Assembly (NCBI RefSeq): GCF_963678185.1 | Contig: NZ_OY782757.1 | Location: 3,252,001 to 3,316,000 of the forward strand | DNA: 64,000 nt | Direction of reading: 5' to 3' | From: an uncultured Tolumonas sp. | GTDB lineage: Bacteria; Pseudomonadota; Gammaproteobacteria; Enterobacterales; Aeromonadaceae | Part shown: piece after piece, positions 22,584-57,550 of the stretch | Numbering within the stretch: the first letter of the stretch is position 1 | Layout: the number at the start of each line of letters is the position of its first letter | Notes under the pieces: generated by a model | The model's input: the letters and a program-made list of their open reading frames with translations, nothing else | Database searches by the model: none | Told to the model about the DNA's origin: nothing | Made by a program: the position numbers and the translations under genes

Positions 22584-24478
22584 TGGGGGGATATTCGAAG
22601 TTTATTGTCTTAGGGCTGCTGATCATTGGCATGACCATTGGCATGTTCAGCTCCCTTTACTCTTTTCAGACAGTGTCACAGCGCATTACCGCGCATTCGA
22701 CACTGAGCGCATGGTCGTTGGCGCAACTTGAGCTGGAATATCAGAAATTAAGTACCGAACTACAGCTCTATCGTGCCGGAAAGAGTGATAGCGATAAACT
22801 TTCTTTGGCTTATGACTTAGCCTGGAATCGGATGGATGTTTTTTTACACGGTGCCGAAAGCGCTGCAGTCAGAAGTCAATTTGGTGCTGAAGCTCTGATC
22901 CAAAAAGTGTTTTTTTTACTTCAGCAACATGAAGCGCTGATGGAAAATTTACCATCTCCCGATTCCCCTGAGTTAGCCGCATGGGAACAACAATTACTGA
23001 CGTTGCAACCAGATATTCGCCAGCTCATGATTCAGAATTTTACCGGCCCCGGTGCTAGACGGGGCATGGATTCTATCGAAGCGACGGTTAAGCATATTTC
23101 TTGGGTGTTGGCGGTTGTCGCACTGCTGAGTTTACTGGTGAGTTATCTGTTATTCCGTGAATCGCGGCAGCATTGGTTTTTATCACTGCATGATCCTTTA
23201 ACGACGCTGACCAATCGTGCGCATTTTTTAACATTACTCAAAGAGCGTTGTTATCAGGCGAGTGTAAAACGACAAGCGCTGAGTTTGTGCATCTTAGATA
23301 TTCAACGCTTTAATGAGGTCAATGACCTGTTTGGTTATCAAAACGGTGATGCTTTGCTGCAAGGTTTTGGGCAGATTTTGCGTTTGCGGTTTGGTAAGAC
23401 AGCTTTAGTTGGCCGCACCGGGGGCAGTGAATTTGCCTTATTAATTCCCCAGCATGAAGTAACAACTTTGCTGCCAGAGGTGCTGAAAGAACTCGACGCA
23501 TTTTTGCGAGAATATGATCCAGCGCATCGGGTCTATCTTTGCTGTGGGGTCAGCACCTACCCGGAACAATGTTCGACCGATGGCGAATTATTCCAATTTG
23601 CCGAACAAGCATTATCAGCCGCGAAGAAAAATAGTCCTCACCATTACCAGGTGTTTAATACGCGCATGTTGAGTGATTTTCAGCGTCGACGTGAGTTAGC
23701 TACGCACCTGCGAGCTGAATTACAAGTGCCTGATTCAGCCAAATTGTTTATGTGTTATCAGCCGGTGCACTCTGTTCTGCCATCAGACAAACTCGGTATG
23801 GAAGCGCTGTTGCGTTGGAAGCACCCATTATTTGGCTTTGTAGCGCCGCCGGAGATTATTGAGATTGCGGAAGAGCATGGGTTGGGTGATGCATTAGGCG
23901 ATTGGATATTCCGGCGTGTATTTAAAGACCTGGGTTCACTGCCGTTTTGGCAGCTCGAACGTATCTCCGTTGCGGTGAATCTCTCGGAATCTATGTTCAC
24001 GCTGAATTTACCGACCAAGCTGAACCAATTCTTACGCGACTGCCCCATCTTGCATGAACAATTGATCCTTGAATTGACAGAGACGATCGCATTGCATGAC
24101 TTTACCACCAGTCAGCAAATTCTGCGGGCGTTGCAAAAAGATAATATCCGCATTGCTCTGGACGACTTTGGTACCGGCTTTTCTTCGCTGGCCTATCTGA
24201 AAGATTTATCGCTCGATAAATTGAAGATTGATAAATCCTTTATTCAGCAAATTGACCTCGACCCTCGTCAGTTATATCTGGTGCGTCATATTACTGAACT
24301 AGCGCATGATCTGGGTTTGACTGTGGTCGCGGAAGGGGTGGAAACGGCCGTAGAATTAGAGGTTGTTGCCGAAATTGGCGTGGAGGAGATCCAAGGTTAT
24401 CACTACTCCCGGCCATTAGAATTATCGCATCTGATCAGTTATCTTTCGAAACATTTTCATCCGGAAACACCTTCATAA
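22583..24478 (+). CDS. membrane GGDEF-EAL protein, DcpA-like cyclic-di-GMP phosphodiesterase
   Basis: This 631-residue inner-membrane protein has two membrane segments (about 8-27 and 173-191) flanking a periplasmic helical domain of about 145 residues. The GGDEF domain (about 205-360) has GGSEF at 280-284, so the signature Asp is Ser and cyclase activity is doubtful. The EAL domain (about 375-620) keeps Glu407-Ala-Leu, the NLSE, ELTE, DDFGTGFSSL, KIDKSF and EGVET motifs, so cyclic-di-GMP hydrolysis is expected. Translational coupling to the upstream periplasmic protein suggests that protein controls it through the periplasmic domain. It could tune adhesion or motility. Confidence 0.85.
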   Translation: MGGYSKFIVLGLLIIGMTIGMFSSLYSFQTVSQRITAHSTLSAWSLAQLELEYQKLSTELQLYRAGKSDSDKLSLAYDLAWNRMDVFLHGAESAAVRSQFGAEALIQKVFFLLQQHEALMENLPSPDSPELAAWEQQLLTLQPDIRQLMIQNFTGPGARRGMDSIEATVKHISWVLAVVALLSLLVSYLLFRESRQHWFLSLHDPLTTLTNRAHFLTLLKERCYQASVKRQALSLCILDIQRFNEVNDLFGYQNGDALLQGFGQILRLRFGKTALVGRTGGSEFALLIPQHEVTTLLPEVLKELDAFLREYDPAHRVYLCCGVSTYPEQCSTDGELFQFAEQALSAAKKNSPHHYQVFNTRMLSDFQRRRELATHLRAELQVPDSAKLFMCYQPVHSVLPSDKLGMEALLRWKHPLFGFVAPPEIIEIAEEHGLGDALGDWIFRRVFKDLGSLPFWQLERISVAVNLSESMFTLNLPTKLNQFLRDCPILHEQLILELTETIALHDFTTSQQILRALQKDNIRIALDDFGTGFSSLAYLKDLSLDKLKIDKSFIQQIDLDPRQLYLVRHITELAHDLGLTVVAEGVETAVELEVVAEIGVEEIQGYHYSRPLELSHLISYLSKHFHPETPS

Positions 24479-33489: not shown

Positions 33490-35373
33490 ATGACCCTGAA
33501 TATTAAGAATAAACTACTATTAGCGCTGATCGCGTTGCTGGTGGTGATGACTGGTGTGCAGTTGTGGTCGAGCAGTCGCACTCAGGCTGATCAAGCCAGA
33601 AAAACAGTAGATAGCTATGCGCAAACCGTGGCGGCCGCGCAGGTGAATTATCTTAAATATTGGCTAGATAATAGTGCCAGTATCGTTAATGCAGCCAAGC
33701 AAGTTTTCGGTAAACCGGATATCGATCCGGTTCCAGCCTTAATCCAAGCTGCTTCTGCCGGCAAGTTTGATATGGTTTATGCGGGCACATCCGATGGTCA
33801 AATGAAGGTTTCTACTATCGGATGGAAAGCACCGGAGGGTTATGATCCTCGTCAGCGCCCTTGGTATCAAGATGCAAAAGCCGCCGGTAAACTGGTTGTA
33901 ACTGCACCGTATGAAGATGCATCTAGTCATGCATTAATGATCAGTATTGCCGAGCCTTATGATTTTGGTGCTAATCAGGGGGTTATCTCGGGTGATGTGG
34001 TGATCAAAGACCTCATTACTAACGTGAATAAAATTCAGTCCGATGGTGTGAGCGGTGTCTTGGTCGATGGCAGTGGCAATATTGTTGCATCTAAGGATGC
34101 AGCATTAACGTTGAAGCCTGCGACGAATTTAGCGGCCGACCTGAGTTTATCTGCTATCAAACAGATGGCGCAGGAAGGTGCATTACACGAAATCACCATC
34201 GGTGATGCTTCTACGTTTGTGGTGTTTAAACAGATCCCCGGCTATGACTGGTATTTCGGCTTGTTATATGACGAATCAGTCGCTTTCCAGAATATGCATC
34301 AACAACAAACACACACCATGCTATTTGGTTTGATCCAGTTGCTGGTTGTGGTTGGTGCAGCATTTGTGATCATTCGTGGCATGTTACACCCGCTGGATAC
34401 CATGGCTGAAGCAGTTGCAGCTTTGTCGCGCGGTAATGGTGATTTAACCCATCGTCTGACAGTAACCCAACAGGATGAAATCGGTGTTGTGACTCGACAC
34501 ATCAATACCTTCCTTGATCGACTGCACGACATGATGCTAAAAATTGCCAGCAGCTCGCGTGAATTGGATCAGCAGGCTGGTCAGTCACGAGACATGGCAG
34601 CGAAAAACAATGTTTCGTTGCAGCACCAGCAACAGGAAATTTCTCAGATCGCGACTGCAGTACATGAAATGTCGGCAACCGCCAATGAAGTAGCCAGCAA
34701 TGCTGAGCAAACTGCACAAGCAGTGCGTGAATCGGCGAATAACTGCGAGCAAGGCAAACAAGTTATTGCACGTAATCAGCAATCGATTACCCGTCTGGCT
34801 GGTGAGGTAGAACAAGCTTCCAACATCATTCGTGAACTGGAGCAGAACGCGCAGCAGATCAACACGATCTTGGCGACCATTCAGGGTATTGCCGAGCAGA
34901 CTAACTTGCTGGCATTGAATGCGGCGATTGAGGCAGCGCGTGCGGGTGAACAGGGCCGTGGTTTTGCTGTGGTGGCGGACGAAGTGCGTGTGTTGTCGCA
35001 ACGAACTCAGCATTCTACCGGTGAGATCCGGGCGATGATTGAAACGTTGCAACGCAACACACACCAAGCAGTTGCAACGATGGATCAAAGCCAGTCACTG
35101 GCGCAAGACAGCGTGGATGAAGCGCAAAGTGCGACCATTGCACTGGAGCAAATCACCCATGCGATCACGCAAATTGCGGATATGGCGATGCAGATCTCCA
35201 GCGCTGCGGAAGAGCAGCGTGCCGTCACGGAAGAGGTTGGTCGTAACATTCAAGCCACGAAAGATGTGTCTGATGAGTTGAGTGACACCGCGCGTCGTTC
35301 AAATGAACTTTCTGCCGATTTGCATGAAATTTCACGTGATTTGAATCAACAGGTGAATAGTTTCCGCGTATAA
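33490..35373 (+). CDS. methyl-accepting chemotaxis protein with dCache sensor, probable amino-acid receptor
   Basis: This 627-residue chemoreceptor has TM1 at about 8-27, a periplasmic dCache domain at about 35-270, TM2 near 280-300, HAMP and a signalling domain with the invariant tip [29 protein letters not shown]. The sensor contains [11 protein letters not shown] followed by APYED and a later SGDVV. This matches the R-x-WY...Y...D ligand signature described for amino-acid-binding dCache domains such as PctA. So amino acids are a reasonable prediction. A FliA-type promoter lies upstream, and a strong bidirectional terminator follows. There is no C-terminal pentapeptide. Confidence 0.93.
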
Positions 35374-43340: not shown

Positions 43341-45044
43341 TTAATGGCGGGTCGGTAATGTATAACTACGAACCATTTCATCCATCACTTGGGCATGGTG
43401 GCTCAATGTTTTACTGGCTTGTGCTAAATCAGTGACCACCTGCTCGGTTTCTTCCACCGAATCACGAATAGCCACCAAGCTATCGGCAACCTGATCGGCA
43501 ACCACACCTTGTTCTTCGGCAGATGCCGCAATCATCTCACTGCGTTCCGCTAATTGACCGGTTTGTGCCGCAATTTCTTCAAAGCCAGTGCTGGCTTTCT
43601 GGGCATTTTCGACCGCCATATTAGCGGCATCAATACTGTTTTGCATCAATGAGACGGCCTGCCGCGTGCCTTGTTGCAGGCCTGCGATCATATTGGCGAT
43701 TTCCTGCGTGGCTTGCTGTGTACGACTGGCCAATGTACGAACTTCATCCGCCACCACGGCAAAACCACGACCTTGTTCACCGGCACGAGCTGCTTCAATT
43801 GCCGCGTTCAGTGCCAACAGATTGGTTTGTTCGGAAATGCCGCGAATGGTGTCAACGACCGAGCCGATCACCGCGACCTTTTGCTCCACACCATTTACGG
43901 AGTCCGCACTGGTAGACAAGTTATCAAACAGGGTGTTCATCGAATTAATCGCATCACGGATCTGTTTCACCCCAGAGGCGGCGAGATGGTCGGTATTCCG
44001 TGTGGCATCCGACGCATCATTGGCATTACGTGCCACTTCTCGCACGGTAGTAGCCATTTCTTCCATGGATGCGGCGACAGAATCCAGGCGCAGGCGTTCA
44101 TCCCGCACCGCATGATCAACATGACCCATGCCGGTATTCATTTGTGCCGAGGCGCTGGCCAGAGAAAGTGACATCTCTTGTTGTTGCAGCAGCATTTGCG
44201 CCAGGTTATTCCGGGTTTCCTCTACCGCGCGGTCAATTTGAGCAAACTCATCTTTCCCGCTGCTTTTTTGTGACTGGCTTAAATTGCGTTGTGTAATACG
44301 ACTTAATGCCTGCAACGAAGCGTGTACTTGCTGGCCAATTGCCTTACTAAACAGCGTAATAACGCCACCGATCAACAACAGCATGATGGCGATTAGCACG
44401 GCACTTTGTTTCAGATAATTGGTAAAGGCGCGATCAGCTCGATCAACGTAAACACCGGAAACCAGCATGTAATCCCCTAATGGGTAAACATGGGCAACCT
44501 TAAGAATACGCTCGGTCGTGCCTGGTTTTACATAAGGGTAAACAATCGATTCCGGGGTATTACCGTGACCAATACGTGCAAAGGCTTGGTTTACATTTTC
44601 ATCACGGCCTTCGACCTGTACAGGATCTAACATCCCGCCTTCACGGCTGGCACTGGGTGGATAAATAAGAAGTGTTCCCTGACGGTCAGTCAGAAAAGCA
44701 TAACCAGATTGATCTTTTTCCCATCGCGTATTCATCAGTGTTTGACGAGCTATGGGCATAAATTTCGCGGGCTCATTTTGTAATACCGCCGCAAGTTGCG
44801 CATGTAATCCCTGCACTTGATTAACCATGCCGTGCACAATTTCCTCTCGGATCACATCTCGCGCTGAATAGGCATTCCATAGGTTACCGGCAATGGTACA
44901 TAGCACCACCAATGCCAATAAAATCATCATTTTTCCGGCAAAACGGAAGTTAGCGATAAATTTGCTAAAACCGGATACGGAATGGCTCGTGGAGGTGCCA
45001 TATTCCGCTGTTCGGTAGGTATACGCTTCCTGATAACTGGCCAT
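43341..45044 (-). CDS. methyl-accepting chemotaxis protein with sCache sensor
   Basis: This 567-residue chemoreceptor begins with an unusual polar cytosolic extension of about 36 residues ([18 protein letters not shown]), then TM1 at about 38-58. A periplasmic single-Cache (sCache_2-like) domain at about 65-210 includes [17 protein letters not shown] and [12 protein letters not shown]2 lies near 215-238, followed by a HAMP-like region and a signalling domain with the invariant [29 protein letters not shown] tip. sCache_2 domains often bind small organic acids; the ligand here is unknown. The gene is preceded by a long AT-rich region with a 7-bp microsatellite. Confidence 0.93.
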
Positions 45045-45618: not shown

Positions 45619-45813
45619 ATGACGAAGTGTAAAACGATGGAATTAAGTTACGATCTTGACGGTATGACGCCCGTTGAAGAACAACAGTTCTGGTATGAAT
45701 TCGAAACCATGTTGTTCCGCGCACGCGATGGTGGTGGTATGCAATTGTCAAAAGTGAACATCATCAATCATTCAGTAACGTCTGGCTCTGAAGCTGAAAT
45801 TACTCTGCATTAA
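45619..45813 (+). CDS. small conserved-looking protein of unknown function
   Basis: This 64-residue acidic protein (MTKCKTMELSYDLDGMTP...) has no signal peptide or membrane segment. The ATG at 45619 has a TAAGG ribosome site 8 bases upstream, and codon use looks normal for the region, so it is probably a real gene. I do not recognise the family. Its 3' end overlaps the 3' end of the convergent TetR gene by 14 bases. It lies alone after a 570-bp AT-rich spacer. Confidence 0.6.
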   Translation: MTKCKTMELSYDLDGMTPVEEQQFWYEFETMLFRARDGGGMQLSKVNIINHSVTSGSEAEITLH

Positions 45814-46468
45814 GCATTAATCCGGCAATGGTGGCCCGACTGCAATGAGCCACCGTCGCTATGACCTGCCGCCATTCAACATTTGTTAATTCTATTGGCC
45901 AATTGAGACGCTTATTCAGTAAGGCCTTACCGCAAACAAAACCCACGAGTGGCCCCAGATAAGCCTGTGTTAGTAAGATATTGGCTTTTGTGTCGACTGT
46001 TGTATTCGTAATAAGGGCAATCAATTCACCGATGAGTTGATGGACGGGATCAATAAAACCGCGTTGTAAAATCGTCAACGCAGCAGTGGGATGAAACTGT
46101 TCTCGGGTCAAAAAAATGAACCAGCTGCTTTGATGCTCAGGAGTGAAGGCAATTTCTGCCAGTTTGACGGTGCATTCCAGTAACAGGTTTTGTGGTGCTT
46201 CGTGGTTAAGTCGTGAATGTATGTTTTTTTGCAACGCATTAACTTGTGGGCCCACTGAGGCGGCAATCTGTTCCGCAATCGCCAGATAAACCCCTTCTTT
46301 GCCACCAAAATGATAGGGGATTGCAGCCTGATTAACTTGCGCGGTGGTTGCTAACTGGCGAGTTGTCACGCCATCAAAACCATAGCGGCCAAATAGTGTC
46401 AGTCCGGTATCAATCAGACGTTGTCGGGTTGCTTCACTACGCGGATCTGTAAGAGGGATCGTCTCCAT
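45800..46468 (-). CDS. TetR-family regulator, CecR (YbiH)-like
   Basis: This 222-residue TetR protein has an N-terminal helix-turn-helix (TRQLATTAQVNQAAIPYHFGGKEGVYLAI). The ligand domain resembles E. coli CecR/YbiH, including the conserved FLTREQFHPTAA block. CecR controls a related exporter operon (ybhGFSR) and sensitivity to some antibiotics in E. coli. Here it is the last gene of the yhiI-rbbA-yhhJ-type operon, 12 bases after the permease gene, suggesting autoregulation of that operon. A palindrome at 51401-51416 is the best candidate operator. Confidence 0.88.
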   Translation of the reverse strand: METIPLTDPRSEATRQRLIDTGLTLFGRYGFDGVTTRQLATTAQVNQAAIPYHFGGKEGVYLAIAEQIAASVGPQVNALQKNIHSRLNHEAPQNLLLECTVKLAEIAFTPEHQSSWFIFLTREQFHPTAALTILQRGFIDPVHQLIGELIALITNTTVDTKANILLTQAYLGPLVGFVCGKALLNKRLNWPIELTNVEWRQVIATVAHCSRATIAGLMLNAE

Positions 46469-46480
46469 AATAAGCTCCCG

Positions 46481-47611
46481 TCAAACTTGGGTTTGTGTGA
46501 CAGCCCGGCGAAACCGGGTCAGCGCAACCAAAAAAAACACAACGCCAAGTCCGATCATTGCCAACAGATCGGGCCAGACGATCGTCATTCCTGCACCACG
46601 GTACAAAATAGCCTGCGCAACCCGGACAAAGTAAGTAGAGGGCGCTGCCAGCATGATGTGTTGCACCAATGGCGGCATGCTTTCACGCGGCGTGATCCCG
46701 CCAGAAAGCATCTCCAGCGGTACGATAGTTAAAATGATCAGCAAACCGAGCTGTGGCATCGAGCGGGCCAGTGTGCCGAGAAAAATACCGATGGAGGCCG
46801 CGGAAAACAGATAAAGCACGCTGCTAAACAGGAACAGAGGTAGGGAGCCTGCGATAGGAACCTCAAGCACACCTTGTATCACCAAAGTTAATGCGACGAT
46901 GGTGCCCAACAGTACGGCTAAACTGTTGGCCCATATTTTGGCCATCATAATTTCAAATGGCGTTAGTGGCATAACCAGTAGGTGTTCCAGCGTGCCATGT
47001 TCCCGCTCACGGATAAACGCTGCTCCTACCAGAATGATGGTCAACATATTGATGTTGTTGATCACCTCCATCACACCACCGAACCAGTAACCAGTCAGAT
47101 TCGGGTTAAAACGAACCCGGGTCACCAGTTGGATGGGTAATGTCGCGCTGTCGCGTTTCCCGGTCAGATATTCATTCAGTTCCGCCGCAAAAATTTGCTG
47201 GATGTAATTGGCTCCAATAAATGATTGGCTCATGACTGTGGCATCGATATTGATTTGGATAGTGGGGCGACGGCCTGCTTTCAGATCGCGCTGGAAATCA
47301 GAGGGGATCACAATGGCAAAAGAGTATTGCCCCTGATCCAGCGCAGTATCCATTGTTGGTAATGTAATTTGTTCCGGTGGATTAAAAAATGGTGGTGTCA
47401 GTGCGTTACTTAAACGCGCCGATAGTGGCGAGTGATCTTGGTCGACAATCGCGACTGGCGCATGATTCAGCTCCTGTGATACCCCTTTGGCGGCGCTGTA
47501 GATCCCACCGGTAAACGCCCAGACGATCAACAGTAATAGCACGCGATCTGCCCACAGACTGCGTAATTCTTTAATGCCCAATCGCCAGATGTTACTCACA
47601 TGTGCATTCAT
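46481..47611 (-). CDS. yhhJ: ABC-2 type permease, YhhJ-like
   Basis: This 376-residue inner-membrane permease has an N-terminal membrane helix (about 24-42), a large extracytoplasmic domain (about 45-170) and about five C-terminal helices (about 175-370) with the ABC-2 signature FIREREHGTLEHLLVMPLTPFEIMMAKIWAN. Its length and context match E. coli YhhJ (about 375). It is the second membrane half of the exporter whose first half is fused to the ATPases in the preceding gene. The gap from that gene is 6 bases. Confidence 0.9.
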   Translation of the reverse strand: MNAHVSNIWRLGIKELRSLWADRVLLLLIVWAFTGGIYSAAKGVSQELNHAPVAIVDQDHSPLSARLSNALTPPFFNPPEQITLPTMDTALDQGQYSFAIVIPSDFQRDLKAGRRPTIQINIDATVMSQSFIGANYIQQIFAAELNEYLTGKRDSATLPIQLVTRVRFNPNLTGYWFGGVMEVINNINMLTIILVGAAFIREREHGTLEHLLVMPLTPFEIMMAKIWANSLAVLLGTIVALTLVIQGVLEVPIAGSLPLFLFSSVLYLFSAASIGIFLGTLARSMPQLGLLIILTIVPLEMLSGGITPRESMPPLVQHIMLAAPSTYFVRVAQAILYRGAGMTIVWPDLLAMIGLGVVFFLVALTRFRRAVTQTQV

Positions 47612-47617
47612 GTCAGC

Positions 47618-50353
47618 CTACCTTTCCTGCTTGGGTAACAAGGCGAGAGAAAGCAGTGTCAGCACAGGAATAAATACGGCCAGCGCCAGTAACGGGCCGA
47701 TCAGATCGTAAAAGCCAAGCGCTTTGGTAAATACACCGCGGCTGATGATCAAAAAATAAGTTGCTGGAAAACATTGGCCGATACCATATGCCATACCGGT
47801 TAATGAACCCACGGGGGTAGTAAGACCGGAAAATTGTACCGTTGGTAACATGGTCAAGATTGCTGTACCAAACAATGCGGCGATCTGCGTGCGGGTGAAG
47901 GTGGAGATGACTAACCCAACGCCCGTGGTGGTGGTCACATATAACAACGCACCCAATGTTAAGGTAAACAGGCTGCCTTTTACTGGCACCTCAAATAGCC
48001 AGACTGCCTGTAATAACAGACATAAATAACTCGCCATCGATATAACAATGTAGGGCAGTTGTTTACCCAGTAAAAATTCAAGCCGGGTAACTGGCGTGAC
48101 ATAAAGATTAGTGATTGAACCGAGTTCTTTTTCCCGAACCACGCCCAGCGCCATTAAAATGGCAGGAATAAAGACCAGCAATAAGGGAAATACGGCTGGC
48201 ACCATGGCATAAATGCTGCGGAAATCCTGATTGTAGCGGTAGCGTAATGCCAGATCAGTGGGTAGCAACTGCGGGGTAGTCCCGGTCGTTTCAGTGATCA
48301 GATCGAGCAGATATTGCTGATGCAGACCTTGCACATAACCGAGCGCCGTTTCACCCCGATACGGTAAAGCGCCATCGATCCAGGCGGCTATTTCTGGATG
48401 CCGGTTGATACGCAGGTTATGACCAAACCCCGGTGGGATCTCCAGCGCCACAGTGAGTTCACCGCTGCGCATACGTTGTTCCAATTCCTGTTCACTGTGA
48501 AGCGGAGCTTGCTGCTGGAAATAACGGGAACCTGCCATGTTTTGTATATAAGCACGTGATTCCGGTGTTTGATCACGATCCAGCACCGCAAAGCGCAAGT
48601 TTTCGACATCCATCGAAATACCATTGCCCAGCACAAACATCAATAACACCGAACCTAACAGTGCAAATGACAGCCGGATGGTATCGCGTTTTAACTCCAG
48701 CGCCTCCCGATAGGCATACGCCAGCAATCGACGCAGGCTAAATACACGGTAGCGCGAGTTCTGTGGTGTCGTGACAGGGGGCTGCTGGTTATCAGGTTGT
48801 GCGGCAGCCTCTGCATTGTCGGCAGCCGAAGCCTCTTCCAGATAAGTAATAAATGCCGATTCCAATGTATCGGTGTTTTTGCTCTGTTTTAACGCCGCAG
48901 GTGTATCACTGGCGAGAACCCGACCGGCATGCATCAGTGAGATGCGGTCGCAACGTTCCGCTTCATTCATAAAATGGGTGGAGATAAAAATCGTCACACC
49001 TTGCTGTCGCGAAAGCTCTGCCAGTAGCGCCCAGAATTGATCGCGCGCTATCGGGTCAACGCCGGAGGTGGGTTCATCCAATATTAATAATTTCGGCTCA
49101 TGTACCACCGCTACCGCTAACGAAAGACGTTGGCGAATACCCAATGGTAAAGCATCCGCGGGATCATCCAGATAAGGCTCGAGTCCGAAACGGGTCAGCA
49201 ATGTTGTTACCCGTGCGCTGATTTTGTCTTCCGGCAGATGGAACAGCTGGGCATGTAATGTCAGATTCTGTAACACCGTTAGTTCGCCATACAGCGAAAA
49301 AGCCTGTGACATATAACCAACCTGCTGGCGGGTGGCGATATTTTTATTGTCCACTGGCGCACCAAACAGACGGGCATTGCCTTCGGTGGGTGGCAATAAC
49401 CCAGTCAGCATTTTCATGGTGGTGGTTTTTCCGCAGCCATTGGAACCGAGAAAACCAAAGATCTCGCCACGACCAATTGAGAAACTGACATTATCTACGG
49501 CGGTAAATTCGCCAAAGCGTTGGGTTAAACCTTCTGCCTCTATGGCCCACGGCTGATCGCCCGCTTCTCTTGGCGGGATCACTAATTGATGGTGGCCTTG
49601 TTGCCGCGCTATTGGCAGCAAGCGGATAAACGCTTCCTCCAAATTCTGACTGTGCGTGCTGGTTTTTAATTCAGTGGCGGTACCTGTGCCAATGACTTTG
49701 CCGGCATCCATGGCTACCAGCCAGTCAAAATTTTCCGCTTCTTCCATATACGCGGTTGCCACCAATACTGTCATATTAGGATGGCGAACCCGGATGCGTT
49801 GGATCAACTCCCAAAATTGACGGCGGGATAGCGGATCAACCCCGGTCGTCGGTTCATCCAAAATCAATAGATCCGGGTCGTGGATCAGCGCACAACACAG
49901 ACCAAGTTTTTGTTTCATACCGCCCGAGAGTTTTGCCGCCGGACGATCATGAAATGGTGCCAGCCCAGTTGCGTCGAGTAATTCTTTGATTCGGGCAAGA
50001 CGTTCATGGCGGTGTTGTCCAAACAGGCGGGCAAAAAAATCGACGTTTTCAGTGACTGACAACGTAGGGTAGAGGTTGCGTCCTAAGCCTTGCGGCATAT
50101 AGGCAATACGGGGCAGCAGTGTGTCGCGTAAATGGCGATCACCTATATCTGTATTCAGCACTTCAATCTGCCCTTGCTGGATCTTCCGTGCTCCGGCAAG
50201 CAAAGCCAACAGTGATGATTTCCCCACACCGTCGGGCCCGATCAAGCCGACCATGCCGCCAGCCGGTAAACTCAGGGTTATTTGATCCAGCGCTTTCACC
50301 GCACCATAAATCAGGCTGACGGCTGAAAGCGTGGCAACTGTTTGCGCGGTCAT
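47618..50353 (-). CDS. rbbA: fused ABC transporter: two ATPase domains plus ABC-2 permease (RbbA/YhiH type)
   Basis: This 911-residue protein is the same length as E. coli RbbA. The first ATPase has Walker [10 protein letters not shown], signature LSGGMKQK and [13 protein letters not shown]. The second has [10 protein letters not shown], a signature altered to [10 protein letters not shown], and [14 protein letters not shown] Gln/Ala linker leads to an ABC-2 permease with six membrane helices and [27 protein letters not shown]. RbbA is described as a ribosome-associated ATPase, and the operon partners suggest a membrane exporter; both roles remain open. The ATG at 50353 has GAGG 8 bases upstream and follows the HlyD gene by 5 bases. 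Confidence 0.9.
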
Positions 50354-50358
50354 CCTGC

Positions 50359-51342
50359 TTACCTCACAGGAAAGACGGCTGGCCACTTGGCGTTGGCATC
50401 CGTCTGTAAATAAACCACGCCGGGCATACCTGGTTTGGCCTGTGCGGCATGAGCTGCCAGCCAGGAGGGTTCGACTTTGACTTTGATACGAAACATCAAC
50501 TTTTCACGCTCGTTACGGGTTTCTACTTCTTTCGGCGTAAATTGCGCACGAGGGGAAACGAATATGACTTTGGCTGGAACCGTGTCTGGCAGCGCATCGA
50601 GCATAATTTTGGCAGACGAACCCAAGGTGATTTTCCCTGCGTCTGCTGCGGGTAGGTAAACCGACATGGTGACATCATTCAAATCGAGCAAGGTGACTAC
50701 CTTACCGCCTGCCGCCAGTACTTCTCCCGGTTCTGCCAGCCGGTAGAGGATCCGACCGGCAAGAGGGGCAGTTAAGCGGGTGTCTTGTAATGTGCTGCTG
50801 AGCGCATCGACATTGGCATCAGCAGCAGCAACCGCTGCATCGGCTTCTTGTATCTGGTTGCGTACGCCATTCAACGCGGCCTGAGCGACTTGCAAAGCAC
50901 TCTGGGTTTGATCCAATTGATCTTTACTGACAACGTTTTTACTTATCAGCTTGGCCGTACGATTGTGCGTCAGTTGGGCTAAATGTTGCTGACTTTCGGC
51001 GCTGGCAACACTGGTCCGAACGGTTTTAGCATTTTCCCGCGCCTGCTGCGCTTGTGCCTGAGCCCCCCGCAACTGAGCTTGCAGCTCTTTCACTGCTAAT
51101 GTGGCGACTAATTGCCCAGGCTGCACATCATCCCCTTCGTGTATGGTGACGGAATCTAAGCGTCCGGCCAGTTTGGTGGCTATATCAATTTCGGTCGCTT
51201 CCAGCCGACCATTGCCATACACCAGACCTGCGGGCAACGCCTCTGCTCGGTGGTAATACCAATAACCTGCCGCGGCGCTGGCGCCCAGCAGACACAATAA
51301 TATCCAGGGAAGATTGTGGTGAAAAAAGGAAGGAGAACGCAT
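50359..51342 (-). CDS. yhiI: HlyD/EmrA-type membrane fusion protein, YhiI-like
   Basis: This 327-residue periplasmic adaptor has an N-terminal membrane anchor (about 8-28). It is followed by a lipoyl/barrel-sandwich half ([23 protein letters not shown]), a long alpha-hairpin rich in Gln and Ala (about 85-180), and the second half [24 protein letters not shown]. It links the inner-membrane ABC complex to an outer-membrane channel such as TolC. An ATG at 51342 has AGGAG 7 bases upstream; a TTG at 51372 is not needed. It heads the operon yhiI-rbbA-yhhJ-tetR. Confidence 0.9.
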
Positions 51343-51390
51343 GGAACACTCCTGTCGCCGGATGGGCAACAATTCAAGTTTCCTGCTTTA

Positions 51391-51416
51391 AGTATAGTTC
51401 ATTCATTCAAATGAAT
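51391..51416 (-). promoter_or_regulatory. promoter and candidate TetR operator of the exporter operon
   Basis: On the minus strand TATACT (51391-51396) is a good -10. Just upstream lies ATTCATT-CA-AATGAAT (51401-51416), a 16-bp palindrome with 7-bp arms, positioned to block the promoter. The CecR-like regulator encoded at the operon end is the likely ligand. Confidence 0.55.
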
Positions 51417-51544: not shown

Positions 51545-54154
51545 ATGGCGATAGAAAATCCATGCGTGGTGATGATCATCGCAGATGAATCGCAGCAGCA
51601 GTGGTTATACGCGTTACTGAGCCATTATTATCGCGTGCTCACCACTTTACCGGCAGACGGCGACATTCAGCACGCCGATCTCTATGTGTTTGATGAATCA
51701 TCACTTAACGCTCATCAGGCATGGTTAAGTGCCTGGCGAAAACCGCTACAACCTGATTCTCCCTCGGTTTTATTGCTGAGCGACAATCAGCAGGCAACAT
51801 TGGCTGTTGAATTTGAAACGTTGGTGGATGAAGTGTTACCGGCTGAGATTGAAGCAGAGCAACTCAGGGAACATATCAACCAATGGCTGCAGTTAAGAGC
51901 AAGTGTGCTGGTTTGGCAACGCGCGTCAAATAGCCGTCAAACTCTGAATAAACCATTGGTTCACCCTGCGTCAGGGCTAAATTGCCCACTGCCACAAGCC
52001 TATCCAGAGCATAGCCACGCACAATCGCAACTATTGCCAGCATTAGAAGCAACGTTAATGACCTTACTGTTTGAAACTTCCTCGCAGGGTATGTTTGTCT
52101 GCGATATGGAAGGGCGGCTACTCACGGTTAACCCGGCGTTTGCGACGATTGTGGGTTACCGGCGTGAAGAGTTACTCGGCGCTAAACCGGATTTTCTGAT
52201 CCCACTGCGTGGGCATGACGAATATTTCCGCGAATTCCGGCGGCGGGTCTACAAACAAAATGGCTGGGACGGTGAATTATCCGCACGTCGTAAAGACGGT
52301 GATATTTTCCCTTTATGGTTGACCTTACGTTTCCAGTCTAATCAGCCAGAAATAATTGCAGGCGTAAAAGAGGGATATTACATCGGCATCATCACCGATT
52401 TGAGTGTCAGCCGCATGCTGGAAGACAGTGTTTTACAGTTATCCCGCACCGATTCGTTATCTGAACTCAATCGGGTGTTGCTGGAAGATCGCTTATCACT
52501 GGCGATCCGTCAGGCTGAACGACAGCAACAAGTGGTGGCTGTGTTGTATATCAATCTGCGTCGTTTTCGCATGGTGAATGACCGCTTTGGTTATGCGATT
52601 GGCGATTGGGTACTGATGGCACAATTGCAGCGTTTACGGAATTTGGTTGGAAACCACGGATTAGTCTGTCGTTTGTTTGCCAACAACTATGTGGTTGTGA
52701 TGTCTGAGCTGGATGATTTGGCACCGGTTCAGGTATTGGCTGAGCAAATCGTAGAGCAGCTGGCGCAGCCACTGTTTTATGACAACAAAGAAATTATTAG
52801 CCAACCGGTTGTGGGTATTAGTGATTATCCATCACATGGGCAAACAGCCGTTGAATTGATCCATAACGCAGACAGTGCCATGGATTGGTGCCGCCGTGAC
52901 GGTGCTTGTAATGTGCAATTATTCACCGAAGATTTACATTCCAACCTACAACAACGCCTTGATTTAGAAAAAGAACTCAAACAAGCCTTACAGCGGAATG
53001 AGTTTTTTCTGGAATATCAGCCGCAACTCAATCTGCAAACCGGTGATATTAAAAGTGTTGAAGCCTTGATCCGTTGGAATTCGCCACGGGGTGTCTTGCA
53101 ACCTAAAAATTTTATTCCCTTTGCGGAAGAATGCGATTTGATTATTCCCATCAGCAACTGGGTTATCCATGAGGCCTGTAAACAAGGTGCAGCGTGGATA
53201 CAACAAGGCTTGCAACTCACTATCGCCGTGAATCTTTCGGCATCGCATTTCCAAAATGAAAAATTGGTCGATCAGATCAGCCATGCCCTACAAGACAGTG
53301 GTTTCCCGGTTCGATTGTTAGAATTGGAGGTGACGGAAAGCTGCATTATGCAAGAGGTCGGCAATAGCATCACGACGCTCAATGCGCTGAAAAAACTGGG
53401 CGTATCGGTGTCGGTTGATGATTTCGGTACGGGGTATTCCAGCTTAAGTTATCTCAAACTATTCCCTCTCGATAAGCTCAAAATTGATCAATCGTTTGTT
53501 TGCGATTTATCCAGCAGTAACAGCGATGCCGTGATTGTCCGCGCCATTATCGCGCTGGGTCACGCCATGGGCTTAACGATTATTGCGGAAGGTGTTGAGA
53601 CACAAGAACAATATGCGTTGCTGCGTTCCTGGCATTGCGATGAGGTTCAGGGCTTTTTGTTCGCCAAACCGTGTGGGCCAAAAGACTTGCCTGCTGCCAT
53701 CAAACAGATCCATGTCCAGTCACAAGATTTTTCACTGACACGAGCCAAAGAAAACGGCCATGTGTTGTTACTGGTCGATGATGAGCCCTCGATTTTGAAT
53801 GCACTACGCAGAACGTTACGTAGTGCAGAATATAAAATTGTAATTGCCAATGGTGCAGAAGAGGCACTGGATGCGCTGGCTCATTACGATGTCGGTGTCA
53901 TTATTACTGACAACCGCATGCCAGGCGTCAGCGGTATTGAATTATTTCATCAGGTGAAACAACGTTATCCGCAGGTCACCCGGATCATGTTAAGTGGTTA
54001 TTCTGATTTCTCATCGCTCTCGTCGGCGATCAATGCGGGAGAAATATTCCGTTTTCTCAGTAAGCCTTGGGAAGATGATCAGCTTAAAGCTGCTGTACAT
54101 GAGGGCTTTATAAAATTTGATGATCAGAATTTACTGAATCAAATACCCCGTTAA
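51545..54154 (+). CDS. PAS-GGDEF-EAL-receiver protein (cyclic-di-GMP phosphodiesterase)
   Basis: This soluble 869-residue protein has a poorly defined N-terminal region (about 1-165, possibly a degenerate receiver) and a PAS domain (about 170-295). A GGDEF domain follows with the signature replaced by FANNY at 378-382, so it cannot be a normal cyclase. The EAL domain (about 485-725) keeps Glu506-Ala-Leu, NLSASHF, EVTES, DDFGTGYSSL, KIDQSF and EGVET. The C-terminal receiver (about 745-865) has phosphoacceptor Asp789 in ITDNRMPG. Receivers are usually N-terminal, so this order is uncommon. It is first of a four-gene operon ending in a hemerythrin kinase, the likely phosphodonor. Confidence 0.9.
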   Translation: MAIENPCVVMIIADESQQQWLYALLSHYYRVLTTLPADGDIQHADLYVFDESSLNAHQAWLSAWRKPLQPDSPSVLLLSDNQQATLAVEFETLVDEVLPAEIEAEQLREHINQWLQLRASVLVWQRASNSRQTLNKPLVHPASGLNCPLPQAYPEHSHAQSQLLPALEATLMTLLFETSSQGMFVCDMEGRLLTVNPAFATIVGYRREELLGAKPDFLIPLRGHDEYFREFRRRVYKQNGWDGELSARRKDGDIFPLWLTLRFQSNQPEIIAGVKEGYYIGIITDLSVSRMLEDSVLQLSRTDSLSELNRVLLEDRLSLAIRQAERQQQVVAVLYINLRRFRMVNDRFGYAIGDWVLMAQLQRLRNLVGNHGLVCRLFANNYVVVMSELDDLAPVQVLAEQIVEQLAQPLFYDNKEIISQPVVGISDYPSHGQTAVELIHNADSAMDWCRRDGACNVQLFTEDLHSNLQQRLDLEKELKQALQRNEFFLEYQPQLNLQTGDIKSVEALIRWNSPRGVLQPKNFIPFAEECDLIIPISNWVIHEACKQGAAWIQQGLQLTIAVNLSASHFQNEKLVDQISHALQDSGFPVRLLELEVTESCIMQEVGNSITTLNALKKLGVSVSVDDFGTGYSSLSYLKLFPLDKLKIDQSFVCDLSSSNSDAVIVRAIIALGHAMGLTIIAEGVETQEQYALLRSWHCDEVQGFLFAKPCGPKDLPAAIKQIHVQSQDFSLTRAKENGHVLLLVDDEPSILNALRRTLRSAEYKIVIANGAEEALDALAHYDVGVIITDNRMPGVSGIELFHQVKQRYPQVTRIMLSGYSDFSSLSSAINAGEIFRFLSKPWEDDQLKAAVHEGFIKFDDQNLLNQIPR

Positions 54155-54191
54155 TCAGGCTACTGGCTGATAAAAATGAAGGATCATTAGG

Positions 54192-55484
54192 ATGCCGACA
54201 CCGTTTACCATCCTGCTGGTGGATGATGAAATCAATATATTACGTGCTTTGCATCGCCTATTGCGGCCGGAAGGATACCGGATATTAACCGCTGAAAGTG
54301 GCGCAGCAGCATTGAGCCTGATGCGCAACGAACCGGTTGATTTGGTTATTTCTGATATGCGTATGCCTGAAATGGATGGTGCCGTATTTTTGGCTAAAGT
54401 ACGGCAGGAATGGCCGGACACCATACGTTTATTGCTGACCGGTCATGCGGATATGACGCAGACGGTGGCAGCGATCAATCAAGGCGAAATATATCGCTTT
54501 ATTGCTAAACCATGGAACGATCAGGAGTTACAACTTATCGTTCGGCAAGCCTTGGAACAGCTGTATTTACGCCGTGAAAACCAACGCTTATTAAAATTGA
54601 CCGCAGAGCAAAATGAAGCGTTAAAAGAAGCCAATAACACACTGGAACAGAAGGTTGCACAACGCACCGCAGAACTGAGCCAATTAGTTTCTTTTCTGGA
54701 ACTCACACAAGAAGAGCTGAAAACCTCATTCAGAACTTCTGTACAGGTATTCTCTGGCATTATTGAAATGCGTTTTGCTAATTGGACTGGCCACAGCTTA
54801 CGAGTCGTGACCTTGGCGGAACGCTTGGCAAAACGAGCTGGATTAAAAGCCGAAGAAATTGAAGCCGTAATGAATGCTGCTATGTTGCATGACATTGGCA
54901 AGGTTGCATTACCGGATACTTTACTCAGTAAAGCGTTTGCCAGTCACAATCGTCAGGAGCGCATAGAATATATGGAGCATCCGGCGCTCGGGCAAATGGT
55001 GTTGTTACCCATTCAGGAACTAAATCTTGCTGGTGTTTATATCCGCGGGCAGCACGAAAATGTGGATGGTAGTGGTTTTCCCGATCATTTGAAACTCAAT
55101 GAAATTCCGATCGGTGCCAGAATATTAGCCATAGTCGTTGATTATGATGAATTACAAATGGGGTTGCTGTTGCCTCGGGAAGTGACAGAAGAACATGCTC
55201 TTTTGTACATAAAAGAAAACAAAGGGCTACGCTACGATCCTGAATTGGTTCAGCTGTTTATACAATCGCTGGAGGCGGAACAACACCGCTACAAAGAAGT
55301 TGCATTGAGTAGCCAGCAATTAAAAACCGGTATGGTTTTGTCCCGGGATTTATACAGCGCCGGGCATTTTCTGTTGTTAGCCAAAGGCCGAAAACTGGAT
55401 CCATCTATCATCAAACATATTTGCCGTTTTGAACAAACAGACGGTAAACCGATCGTTGTTTATATTCGGCAAGATATAAATTAA
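54192..55484 (+). CDS. receiver/HD-GYP response regulator (RpfG-type)
   Basis: This 430-residue protein has an N-terminal receiver (Asp55 in VISDMRMPEMDG, then the Thr-Gly and Lys-Pro-Trp motifs), a coiled coil at about 125-170, and an HD-GYP domain at about 175-370. The HD doublet is His233-Asp234 in MLHDIGK. The second motif reads QHENVDGSGFP, so the first His of HHE is Gln and GYP is GFP. HD-GYP enzymes hydrolyse cyclic-di-GMP; the altered residues make its activity uncertain. It lies 37 bases after the EAL gene and 9 bases before the next receiver gene. Confidence 0.92.
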   Translation: MPTPFTILLVDDEINILRALHRLLRPEGYRILTAESGAAALSLMRNEPVDLVISDMRMPEMDGAVFLAKVRQEWPDTIRLLLTGHADMTQTVAAINQGEIYRFIAKPWNDQELQLIVRQALEQLYLRRENQRLLKLTAEQNEALKEANNTLEQKVAQRTAELSQLVSFLELTQEELKTSFRTSVQVFSGIIEMRFANWTGHSLRVVTLAERLAKRAGLKAEEIEAVMNAAMLHDIGKVALPDTLLSKAFASHNRQERIEYMEHPALGQMVLLPIQELNLAGVYIRGQHENVDGSGFPDHLKLNEIPIGARILAIVVDYDELQMGLLLPREVTEEHALLYIKENKGLRYDPELVQLFIQSLEAEQHRYKEVALSSQQLKTGMVLSRDLYSAGHFLLLAKGRKLDPSIIKHICRFEQTDGKPIVVYIRQDIN

Positions 55485-55493
55485 GGAGTCATC

Positions 55494-56048
55494 ATGGAAA
55501 AAGTTTTGTTGGTAGATGATGAACCATTGATCCTGAAAGCATTAGTCCGGTTATTACAGCGAACCCCCTGTCTCTGTGACGGGCGCCTGTTTAAACTGGA
55601 ACTTGTGACATTTTCTGAACCGTCCAAAGCACTGGAATATGCGCAGAATCACCAAGTATCGTTGGTTATTTCGGATTACCGAATGCCTGGTATGGATGGG
55701 GTTGAGCTGCTGACAGCGATTAAAACGCTGCAGCCGGATGCCGCGCGCCTGATTATTTCCGGTTATGCGGATCTGAATGCATTGATTAACGCCATTAATC
55801 GGGCGCATATTTATCGCTTTGTTGCCAAACCTTGGAACGACTATGAATTGGTCGCGACCATCGGGCAGGCATTACGCCACCGGCAATTGATCCTTGAAAA
55901 TCAGCGTTTGGCTGATTTAGAACGCGTTGCGCGCGGGCAATTATCTGACAGTGAATTGGCAGTAAGACAGTTAGAACGAGAAGCGCCCGGTATTACGAAA
56001 GTGAATTGGGCTGCGGATGGTTCTGTAATGCTGGACGATGAGGAATAA
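55494..56048 (+). CDS. stand-alone receiver protein with C-terminal coil
   Basis: This 184-residue protein has a receiver domain (1-125) with the acidic pair Asp8-Asp9, phosphoacceptor Asp61 in VISDYRMPGMDG, SGYADLN and the conserved Lys in AKPWND. The tail (about 126-184) is charged and probably helical, with no recognised output domain. AAGGAG lies before the ATG. The gene overlaps nothing but is only 2 bases from the kinase gene, so it is probably a phosphorelay or adaptor receiver of the same system. Confidence 0.9.
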   Translation: MEKVLLVDDEPLILKALVRLLQRTPCLCDGRLFKLELVTFSEPSKALEYAQNHQVSLVISDYRMPGMDGVELLTAIKTLQPDAARLIISGYADLNALINAINRAHIYRFVAKPWNDYELVATIGQALRHRQLILENQRLADLERVARGQLSDSELAVRQLEREAPGITKVNWAADGSVMLDDEE

Positions 56049-56050
56049 GC

Positions 56051-57550
56051 ATGGCGTTGGTATGGAGTGATGAGTATGTCACCGGTATTGCTGAGATAGA
56101 CCAACAGCATAAAGCCATTTTCCGTGAAATGGGCTCATTGGCGATGAGTTTACTGCAGGGAAAAAACTATACCGATGTGCAACGCGAACTTAAGCAATTA
56201 GCTCTCATCCTCCGCGAACATATCAATTATGAAGAACTGATGATGTTTCAGGAAGGTTGCCTGCCAGAAGTAATGTGGGGCCATTCCGAAGATCACCAAC
56301 TCTTTTTGCAGCACCTGCATACGGCCAGTAATGAGCTGATGAGCCATGATGAAATCCGGGCTTTCTTACGTTATGCCGTGTTTTGGATGCGTTATCACAT
56401 CCTGACGATTGATAAACCAGTGTGTGCTCAGTTTCTTGCTATGCGCAAAGGCATGAGTTCGGAAGAAGCATATAGCCACTCGGCAGCGGTTGTCATCGAA
56501 GCGGTTCCTTTGTTGTTAGGTGGTTTACATCAAACTTACTCCGAGCTTTACGATTCACAACTGCGCGTTGTGCATCAAAATAGCCATCTTTTGGACGTAC
56601 AGCAAAAACTGAAACAAACCAATCAGGAATTGGAAGATCGGGTAACCCAACGCACGAATGAACTGACCGAGGCCAACCGTAAATTGCAGGATGAATATGA
56701 AAAACTGCAATTACTGAATCAGAAATTAGAAAGTGCCCAGGGGCAATTATTACAATCGGATAAGATGGCGGCGATTGGTCAATTAGCGGCTGGTGTGGCA
56801 CATGAAATCAACAATCCCGTGGGGTTTGTTAATGCTAATCTGGGAACACTAAAAAGCTATGTCGATTCCTTGCTGTTATTGATCAGTACGTTTGAGCAGG
56901 TATCTGATGAATTACCGGCTGGCGTACAACAGCGTTTGCATGAAGTAAAAGAGAACATCGAACTGGACTATGTGCGGCAGGATATTATTGAGCTACTCGC
57001 TGAATCTGCCGATGGATTGGATCGTGTGAAACAGATCGTCCAAGATCTGAAAGATTTTGCCCGCGCGGGTGAATCCGTATGGCAGGATTCAGATTTGCAC
57101 CGTGGTTTAGACAGTACGCTCAATGTGGTCTGGAACGAGCTGAAATATAAAGCCAAAGTACATAAAGAATACGGCGATATTCCGTTGGTGCGTTGTGTTC
57201 CGGCACAGATCAATCAAGTCTTCATGAATATGATGATCAATGCAGCCCATGCAATTGAGGGTATGGGGGAAATTACACTAAAAACTGGTCGGGAAGGTGA
57301 AGAAGTCTGGATCTCAATTACGGATACCGGTAAAGGTATGTCGGAAGCAGTACGCAAACGAATTTTTGAACCATTTTTTACCACGAAAGCGGTAGGGCAA
57401 GGTACTGGCTTAGGTCTTTCTTTGGCATACAGTATCATTCAAAAACATAAAGGGCGTATTGATGTTGTTAGCACAGAAGGCATCGGCACAACATTCACTA
57501 TCTATTTACCTATCGCCGGTAAAGGTGAATCACCCACTGAAAGTGAGTAA
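56051..57550 (+). CDS. hemerythrin-domain histidine kinase, putative O2/NO sensor
   Basis: This soluble 499-residue protein has an N-terminal bacteriohemerythrin domain (1-130). All seven diiron ligands are visible: His20, His57, Glu61, His78, His82, His116 and Asp121, at nearly the same positions as in Methylococcus bacteriohemerythrin. A coiled coil (about 175-235) follows, then a histidine kinase: H-box AAGVAHEINNPVGF with His251, N-box NMMINAAHAIEG, GKGMSE and GTGLGLSLAYSI. It has no membrane segment. Reversible O2 or NO binding at the diiron site would control autophosphorylation and the three receivers encoded upstream in the same operon (inference). Confidence 0.92.
   Translation: MALVWSDEYVTGIAEIDQQHKAIFREMGSLAMSLLQGKNYTDVQRELKQLALILREHINYEELMMFQEGCLPEVMWGHSEDHQLFLQHLHTASNELMSHDEIRAFLRYAVFWMRYHILTIDKPVCAQFLAMRKGMSSEEAYSHSAAVVIEAVPLLLGGLHQTYSELYDSQLRVVHQNSHLLDVQQKLKQTNQELEDRVTQRTNELTEANRKLQDEYEKLQLLNQKLESAQGQLLQSDKMAAIGQLAAGVAHEINNPVGFVNANLGTLKSYVDSLLLLISTFEQVSDELPAGVQQRLHEVKENIELDYVRQDIIELLAESADGLDRVKQIVQDLKDFARAGESVWQDSDLHRGLDSTLNVVWNELKYKAKVHKEYGDIPLVRCVPAQINQVFMNMMINAAHAIEGMGEITLKTGREGEEVWISITDTGKGMSEAVRKRIFEPFFTTKAVGQGTGLGLSLAYSIIQKHKGRIDVVSTEGIGTTFTIYLPIAGKGESPTESE

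Follow-up and report, generated by a model that had tools for sequence, protein, structure and literature searches.

The window analyzed here is a 64,000-nucleotide stretch from an uncultured Tolumonas sp. (contig NZ_OY782757.1, positions 3,252,001 to 3,316,000; the host genome is a single contig of 3.95 Mb). It carries a four-gene signaling operon on the forward strand (window 51545-57550) that ends in a soluble histidine kinase with an N-terminal hemerythrin domain (hemerythrin-histidine kinase, Hr-HK). The gene order is a PAS-GGDEF-EAL protein with a degenerate GGDEF domain and a C-terminal receiver (REC) domain (gene 1), a REC-HD-GYP protein (gene 2), a small receiver (gene 3) and Hr-HK (gene 4). 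By Pfam, gene 1 matches PAS, GGDEF, EAL and REC, gene 2 matches REC and HD, gene 3 matches REC, and gene 4 matches hemerythrin, HisKA and HATPase. An earlier note on this DNA had given the same coordinates, strand and set of closely spaced genes; recomputation yields intergenic gaps of 37, 9 and 2 bp, and the three phosphoacceptor-type Asp residues that it had listed are present, one in each of the three receivers (Table 1).

The closest named relatives of the kinase come from Tolumonas metagenome-assembled genomes (L001, 99%; L002, 89%). A plasmid origin was considered and dropped: no near match was found among 72,556 plasmid records.

Table 1. Genes and features of the hemerythrin-kinase operon, in window coordinates.
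Feature	Position	Strand	Description	Basis
Gene 1, 869 amino acids	51545..54154	+	N-terminal ~125 amino acids, PAS, degenerate GGDEF, EAL, C-terminal receiver (D789)	Pfam and residue check
FANNY replacing GGDEF (from residue 378)	52676..52690	+	Found in 4/4 Tolumonas sequences, window included	
Gene 2, 430 amino acids	54192..55484	+	Receiver (D55) and HD-GYP, NosR family NF053512	Pfam, NCBIfam
Q287 codon, site of first HHE His	55050..55052	+	Q or L in 6/6 Tolumonas; His in 30/40 outside relatives	
Gene 3, 184 amino acids	55494..56048	+	Receiver (D61) and conserved C-terminal tail	Pfam, tail profile
C-terminal tail, 34 residues	55944..56045	+	LExExPGITxVNWxxDGSVxLDxDE, conserved	
Gene 4, 499 amino acids	56051..57550	+	Soluble Hr-HK	Pfam, hydropathy
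Hemerythrin domain	56051..56425	+	Ligands H20, H57, E61, H78, H82, H116, D121	
Long predicted helix, residues 160-234	56528..56752	+	Linker from sensor to kinase core	Structure model
Kinase core	56759..57520	+	H251 in HEINN (codon from 56801), HATPase	

Hemerythrin domain and kinase core

The diiron-ligand set of the hemerythrin domain (five His, one Glu and one Asp) is complete in Hr-HK and kept in 6/6 Tolumonas orthologs, in agreement with the seven ligands claimed by the earlier note. The same seven residues are also kept in two distant kinases in which a PAS domain lies between hemerythrin and kinase (Hr-PAS-kinases), and the domain would be expected to bind iron. Its Pfam score is modest (27.2 bits for a cut-off of 25.3), and its best sequence match in the PDB is the hemerythrin domain of DcrH (2awc, E = 1e-4), a chemoreceptor that carries this domain at its C-terminus. 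Two DcrH-type chemoreceptor-like proteins with a C-terminal hemerythrin are encoded elsewhere in the genome (L181 342-2450 and L182 2616-4718; the chemoreceptor part was assigned by eye). For residues 1-235 only a weak structure model was obtained, with a mean predicted local distance difference test (pLDDT) score of 65 and values above 85 only for residues ~191-230; helices are predicted in it, and hemerythrins (FBXL5, 4xpx) are among its weak top fold matches.

A search with the hemerythrin domain in 368 other genomes of the class (E ≤ 1e-10) returned four proteins, three of which are Hr-GGDEF proteins. Bhr-DGC of Vibrio cholerae and Bhr-HD-GYP of Ferrovum resemble Hr-HK in that an N-terminal hemerythrin controls cyclic-di-GMP, whereas the hemerythrin in the window is joined to a histidine kinase and not to the enzyme itself. 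A shared origin of sensor and linker with Bhr-DGC was considered and dropped: a search with the linker by itself (residues 126-186) returned no match, and no fusion history is claimed.

The kinase boxes reported earlier are complete. The phosphoacceptor H251 is invariant in an alignment of 67 kinases (A1, which omits L136, a kinase split over several frames), where Pfam detects HATPase in 67/67 and HisKA in 60/67; the HisKA score of the window kinase (25.1 bits) is slightly below the cut-off of 26.9. No membrane-spanning segment is indicated in Hr-HK, where Kyte-Doolittle means over 19 residues peak at 1.35, and this value bears out its description as a soluble kinase.

Enzymatic sites of the EAL and HD-GYP proteins

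In gene 1, nine EAL catalytic and metal residues, which we take from the EAL literature to be the catalytic positions, are intact in 4/4 Tolumonas sequences, and the GGDEF motif of the same sequences is replaced (Table 1). The best explanation of these residues is that the EAL domain is a predicted active phosphodiesterase and the GGDEF domain is probably dead. The N-terminal 125 residues (51545-51919) were considered as a fourth, decayed receiver, since visual inspection and the succession of predicted strands and helices hinted at one; this is not claimed. The segment has no Pfam receiver match at E ≤ 10, an HHalign probability against receivers of 2% and a single-sequence structure model with a pLDDT of 48.6. 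Two other genomes of the genus encode an additional EAL-REC protein whose receiver is of the NosR type (G395:C1:3159287-3160468 and G403:C5:110686-111849, the latter with one internal stop); it is absent among the matches listed for the window's genome.

With 538.8 bits, gene 2 exceeds the cut-off of the NosR family NF053512 (400 bits), which is also passed in four other genomes of the genus; the copy of G402 is truncated by the contig end. In the window, the HD-GYP domain of gene 2 departs at two of 15 positions checked: HHE reads QHE, and the Tyr of GYP is changed (the motif reads GFP in 5/6 Tolumonas sequences). The domain retains the HD pair, the lysine, the HP histidine, the second HHE His and both later Asp. 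The changed first HHE His presumably occupies a metal-ligand position. The two altered enzymatic sites pointed out earlier, GGDEF to FANNY and HHE to QHE, are therefore both real, and the second falls on this ligand position.

The earlier note had both outputs degrade the messenger, which amounts to two active phosphodiesterases under joint control of the kinase. The small number of departures in gene 2 favors such a model, as does the retention of both HHE His in 20 and of all nine ligand-type positions in ten of 40 HD-GYP relatives outside the genus. On the other side, the first HHE His is Q or L in every Tolumonas ortholog. It is present in 30 of the 40 relatives and Q in the other ten, all of which, unlike Tolumonas, have also lost the second His. 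Two of these ten (L166 and L172) are linked to an H-NOX-like gene, and a third H-NOX-linked relative (L174) retains the first His and shows decay at other positions. Since the first HHE His is lost in 6/6 orthologs and HD-GYP decay is seen in H-NOX-linked relatives, gene 2 is more likely to be a regulator than a second enzyme, with residual activity possible. HnoD and NosR, members of the same REC-HD-GYP family, are described as degenerate (PMC6335343, PMC12570481; partial texts). Two active phosphodiesterases are thus rather unlikely, and the earlier claim is supported for the intact EAL site only, one metal-ligand His of the HD-GYP being absent in all six genomes.

A small receiver with a conserved tail

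Gene 3, previously called a stand-alone receiver, is not bare but ends in a conserved tail of 34 residues (Table 1). The tail consensus is shared by 11 of 17 small receivers found outside Tolumonas (L003, L004, L116, L118-L120, L122, L123, L134, L154 and L155; chosen by eye). All eleven genes adjoin a REC-HD-GYP gene on the same strand, with stop-to-stop frames that overlap or lie at most 25 bp apart. The tail is not universal in this position, as two of the six untailed small receivers (L107 and L153) also adjoin REC-HD-GYP.

A profile built from the eleven tails, without Tolumonas, scores the Tolumonas tails at 45.6-49.8 bits and the best unrelated open reading frame at 8.9 bits (5938 open reading frames). 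When Tolumonas rows were included and 369 genomes of the class were searched, strong matches (≥ 52 bits) were obtained in ten genomes, the window's among them, and two further matches were marginal (22 bits). The nine other genomes with a strong match all belong to the 35 genomes that encode the kinase at E ≤ 1e-85; the corresponding chance probability (P ~1.7e-10) exaggerates the strength of this association, as seven of the nine had contributed rows to the profile and an eighth (G798) had already turned up in the first profile search. Independent evidence is provided by the ninth, G682, and by the lack of strong matches in the remaining genomes. The tailed receiver of G682 lies near REC-HD-GYP on the opposite strand, and no kinase of the Hr-HK family was found in that 18-kb stretch. 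These data point to a conserved-tail receiver protein as part of the module, for which no family of its own was seen in the Pfam search or among the 25 NCBIfam rows shown. That the tail serves as a docking element is a guess. In the draft genome G402, the tailed receiver (L072, G402:C207, about 880-1305) is interrupted by a stop.

Conservation in the genus and among outside relatives

Hr-HK is encoded in six of 11 genomes of the genus, and the arrangement recurs in all six as far as the contigs reach. The four genes are complete and in the same order in G000, G395, G400 and G403; the contig of G399 starts inside gene 1 and that of G402 inside gene 2, with the remaining genes in order apart from the interrupted receiver of G402. 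Three genomes contain neither Hr-HK nor the kinase paralog adjoining NosP described below (NosP-kinase) at E ≤ 1e-40, and G398 (63% complete) and G401 (95%) contain the NosP-kinase only. A lack of conserved co-occurrence of the four genes in relatives had been set beforehand as a refuting result; the set is conserved within the genus, and outside it, as a rule, only parts of it are found.

Outside the genus, searches of 394 order genomes (E ≤ 1e-60) and 369 class genomes (E ≤ 1e-85), both sets being samples, listed no match that spans both hemerythrin and kinase. To describe the neighborhoods, 62 kinase loci outside Tolumonas were used. Sixty were chosen from the order and class kinase matches and do not represent all of them, two (L107 and L108) were reached through REC-HD-GYP, and several loci share one genome. 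In 37/62 loci (35/60 without L107 and L108), a REC-HD-GYP gene is found no more than 5 kb from the kinase. Such genes number 35 per 362.7 kb at distances of up to 3 kb, two of the 35 coming from the loci fetched through REC-HD-GYP, versus 0 per 301.3 kb beyond 5 kb. REC-HD-GYP and a small receiver occur together within 5 kb in 16/62 loci. An EAL protein with a C-terminal receiver is found at this distance in 9/62 loci, so that this receiver, which the earlier note thought unusual, is not unusual in its context.

Eleven gaps in these neighborhoods were examined. Three hold an H-NOX-like gene, each confirmed by Pfam (L166, L172 and L174), and the others contain a CheX-like gene or nothing recognized. 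A CheX/CheC-like phosphatase gene beside the kinase of a relative was Pfam-tested in L160 (8940-9548); by eye, similar genes are also present in L108 (9597-10196) and L164 (9443-10117).

Pfam hemerythrin was found in 4/67 kinases of A1, namely the window kinase, the two Hr-PAS-kinases L129 (G682) and L146 (G646) and, by inference, the Tolumonas row L104; it thus occurs on 2/65 rows other than Tolumonas Hr-HK. A receiver gene, an HDOD gene and an intact REC-HD-GYP gene adjoin L146 on the other strand. The Hr-PAS-kinases share with the window a hemerythrin on the same kinase family but differ in the interposed PAS domain, and the tree gives no firm sister relation. In this kinase tree, the six Tolumonas Hr-HKs form one group (100/100) and seven NosP-kinases a separate one (100/100). 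L146 and L128 are placed weakly beside Hr-HK (84/53) and L129 falls elsewhere, so one gain of the hemerythrin and several are not distinguishable.

Search for nitric oxide sensors in the same genome

A NosP gene (FIST, FIST_C) and its adjoining kinase paralog lie ~226 kb from the operon (L068 4249-6536; G000:C1 about 3535248-3537535). The core of this NosP-kinase is 49% identical to that of Hr-HK. No receiver gene was found in the 10-kb stretch around the pair, and there is no FIST gene inside the operon. H-NOX (PF07700) was detected in 0/11 genomes of the genus, the window's included; the control matched in 1/14 named genomes.

A NosP-type FIST gene (> 140 bits) is present in 6/6 Hr-HK genomes, in one of them with an internal stop. 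Scored by the FIST gene, six of the 11 genomes have both NosP and Hr-HK, none has Hr-HK only, two have NosP only and three have neither (P = 0.06). Scored by the kinases, the numbers are five with both, one with Hr-HK only, two with NosP-kinase only and three with neither. G402 has one stop in its FIST frame, and a search at E ≤ 1e-40 detected no second kinase there. The association between NosP and Hr-HK is only suggestive.

Two alternative roles for the sensor kinase were weighed. The hemerythrin could mainly sense nitric oxide (NO), making the operon a second NO input. This would suit a chassis that is used with the NO sensors H-NOX and NosP, in a genome without an H-NOX match. The genome, however, already has NosP beside a paralogous kinase, and the studied hemerythrin enzymes respond to the redox state of their iron (PMC9388753, partial text), which makes a mainly NO-sensing hemerythrin quite unlikely. 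Alternatively, Hr-HK might act mostly as a phosphatase, with NosP-kinase or other kinases charging the receivers and the hemerythrin gating phosphate removal. HEINN conforms to a phosphatase motif, and a phosphatase role in vivo has been argued for NosK (PMC12570481, partial text); the FIST genes of all six Hr-HK genomes fit as well. Given that the NosP association is no more than suggestive and the kinase boxes of Hr-HK are complete, we consider this division of labor unlikely, though less so than a mainly NO-sensing hemerythrin.

A proposed Hno/Nos-type network with a hemerythrin input

The chassis of the operon, a kinase core with a NosR/HnoD-type REC-HD-GYP, is already known from other systems, where it works with the NO sensor H-NOX or NosP. 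In Shewanella oneidensis, the Hno network runs from HnoK and HnoS to HnoB (EAL), HnoC and HnoD (a degenerate HD-GYP that restrains HnoB), and the signal of HnoS is given as unknown (PMC6335343, partial text). In the Nos system, NosK phosphorylates NosR, which is degenerate (PMC12570481, partial text). Both systems are also covered in a review (PMC8846402, partial text). We estimate a probability of about 0.65 that the operon is a hemerythrin-sensing version of such a multi-receiver network.

The operon resembles the Hno network (H-NOX, HnoK/HnoS, HnoB, HnoC, HnoD) in the predicted branching of a kinase input to a trio of response regulators that includes an EAL phosphodiesterase and a degenerate HD-GYP protein, as far as the available parts of PMC6335343 and PMC8846402 describe them. 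It differs in that its sensor is a fused hemerythrin, with no H-NOX match in the genome, and in its third regulator, which is a tailed receiver instead of a transcription factor. The HD-GYP of the window is also less decayed than those of the three H-NOX-linked relatives; the Hno proteins themselves were compared by description and not by sequence. NosP-NosK-NosR of Burkholderia shares the soluble kinase and a REC-HD-GYP of the NosR family, gene 2 being above the NF053512 cut-off. Unlike that system, the operon lacks NosP and has a hemerythrin on the kinase, an EAL-REC protein and a tailed receiver.

Synteny, the relatedness of the three receivers and the Hno/Nos parallel support the prediction of the earlier note that one kinase feeds several cyclic-di-GMP receivers. 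Among 40 receiver matches in the genome (query included), the best to the gene-2 receiver are the other two operon receivers (92 and 89 bits), and the next reaches 56 bits. This part of the earlier interpretation is retained, as opposed to the degradation of the messenger by both outputs. The genes could also be chance neighbors, unrelated signaling genes in a genome that is rich in receivers and EAL proteins, and the rarity of the full set outside the genus would agree with that. The conserved order in the genus and the receiver kinship already disfavor such an arrangement, as does the fact that kinase and REC-HD-GYP are linked in other families too, and we regard it as highly improbable.

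In the proposed network, the diiron hemerythrin domain would read O2 or redox state, and possibly NO, and the helical linker would pass its state to the balance of kinase and phosphatase activity at H251. Hr-HK would exchange phosphate with the three related receivers. The EAL-REC protein would be the active phosphodiesterase that lowers cyclic-di-GMP, and the REC-HD-GYP protein, with its weakened metal site, would most likely regulate it as HnoD does HnoB, possibly with some activity left. The tailed receiver is most likely an adaptor or a phosphate sink. The NosP-kinase may feed the same receivers and thereby join NO with O2 or redox inputs. For the sign we can offer a tentative suggestion that falls short of even odds: the kinase would be on when the hemerythrin is diferrous (low O2), the EAL protein would be activated and cyclic-di-GMP would fall. 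It is suggested by the two studied hemerythrin enzymes, which respond to iron redox state and are active in the reduced form (PMC9388753, partial text).

Several observations weigh against this hemerythrin-sensing network. REC-HD-GYP, a small receiver and an EAL-receiver protein occur together within 5 kb of the kinase in only 2/62 loci outside the genus, and the stretch around L129, one of the two distant Hr-PAS-kinases, lacks a REC-HD-GYP gene. The N-terminal model of Hr-HK has no PDB fold match at E ≤ 0.001. The other HD-GYP positions checked are kept, so gene 2 may be active. As for a shared use of the receivers, the residues tried as specificity determinants to pair Hr-HK with NosP-kinase are nearly constant over 89 kinases and uninformative. 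In the stretch for dimerization and histidine phosphotransfer, the NosP-kinase is 40% identical to Hr-HK, and several foreign kinases reach up to 53%. G401 and G398 carry the NosP-kinase without Hr-HK or a NosR protein above the cut-off, so the NosP-kinase may have other partners. Finally, NO signs differ among NosP systems (PMC12570481, partial text), so a sign is not transferable from them.

The characterized classes of hemerythrin sensors comprise a chemoreceptor, a cyclase, an HD-GYP protein and a P-type ATPase, with no histidine kinase among them in the available text of PMC9388753. A survey lists 56 hemerythrin architectures (PMC4919030, partial text), and hemerythrin-kinase fusions may already be catalogued among these. 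We found no study of a hemerythrin-histidine kinase in the open PMC literature, and no description, in the open papers searched, of a hemerythrin sensor paired with a Hno/Nos-type cyclic-di-GMP circuit. The new points are the seven-ligand hemerythrin sensor fused to a kinase of a known chassis and the tailed receiver. They suggest that this cyclic-di-GMP chassis can accept a non-heme diiron sensor in place of heme-based NO sensors, and they offer a compact model for joining O2 and NO inputs in a free-living bacterium. Hemerythrin also becomes a candidate input type for network kinases with an unknown signal, such as HnoS (PMC6335343, partial text). A more far-reaching version, which we consider speculative and unlikely as a whole, would make the operon the hemerythrin form of a distinct module that is shared by several families in the class and has a core of kinase, REC-HD-GYP and tailed receiver. 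The tail would dock kinase, HD-GYP and EAL proteins in one complex, on which O2 or redox inputs and the NO input of NosP would converge in Tolumonas.

Genomic surroundings of the operon

An FNR-type box with two mismatches lies upstream of the operon (51402-51415) and is uninformative, as the window holds 68 such matches versus 43 expected. On the reverse strand, positions 45800-51372 of the window encode a TetR/CecR-type regulator, an ABC-2 permease, an ABC exporter (assigned by eye) and an HlyD-type protein; these genes are likely an efflux operon, oriented away from the signaling operon. The window also encodes a further GGDEF-EAL protein and two chemoreceptors (22583-24478; 33490-35373; 43341-45044).

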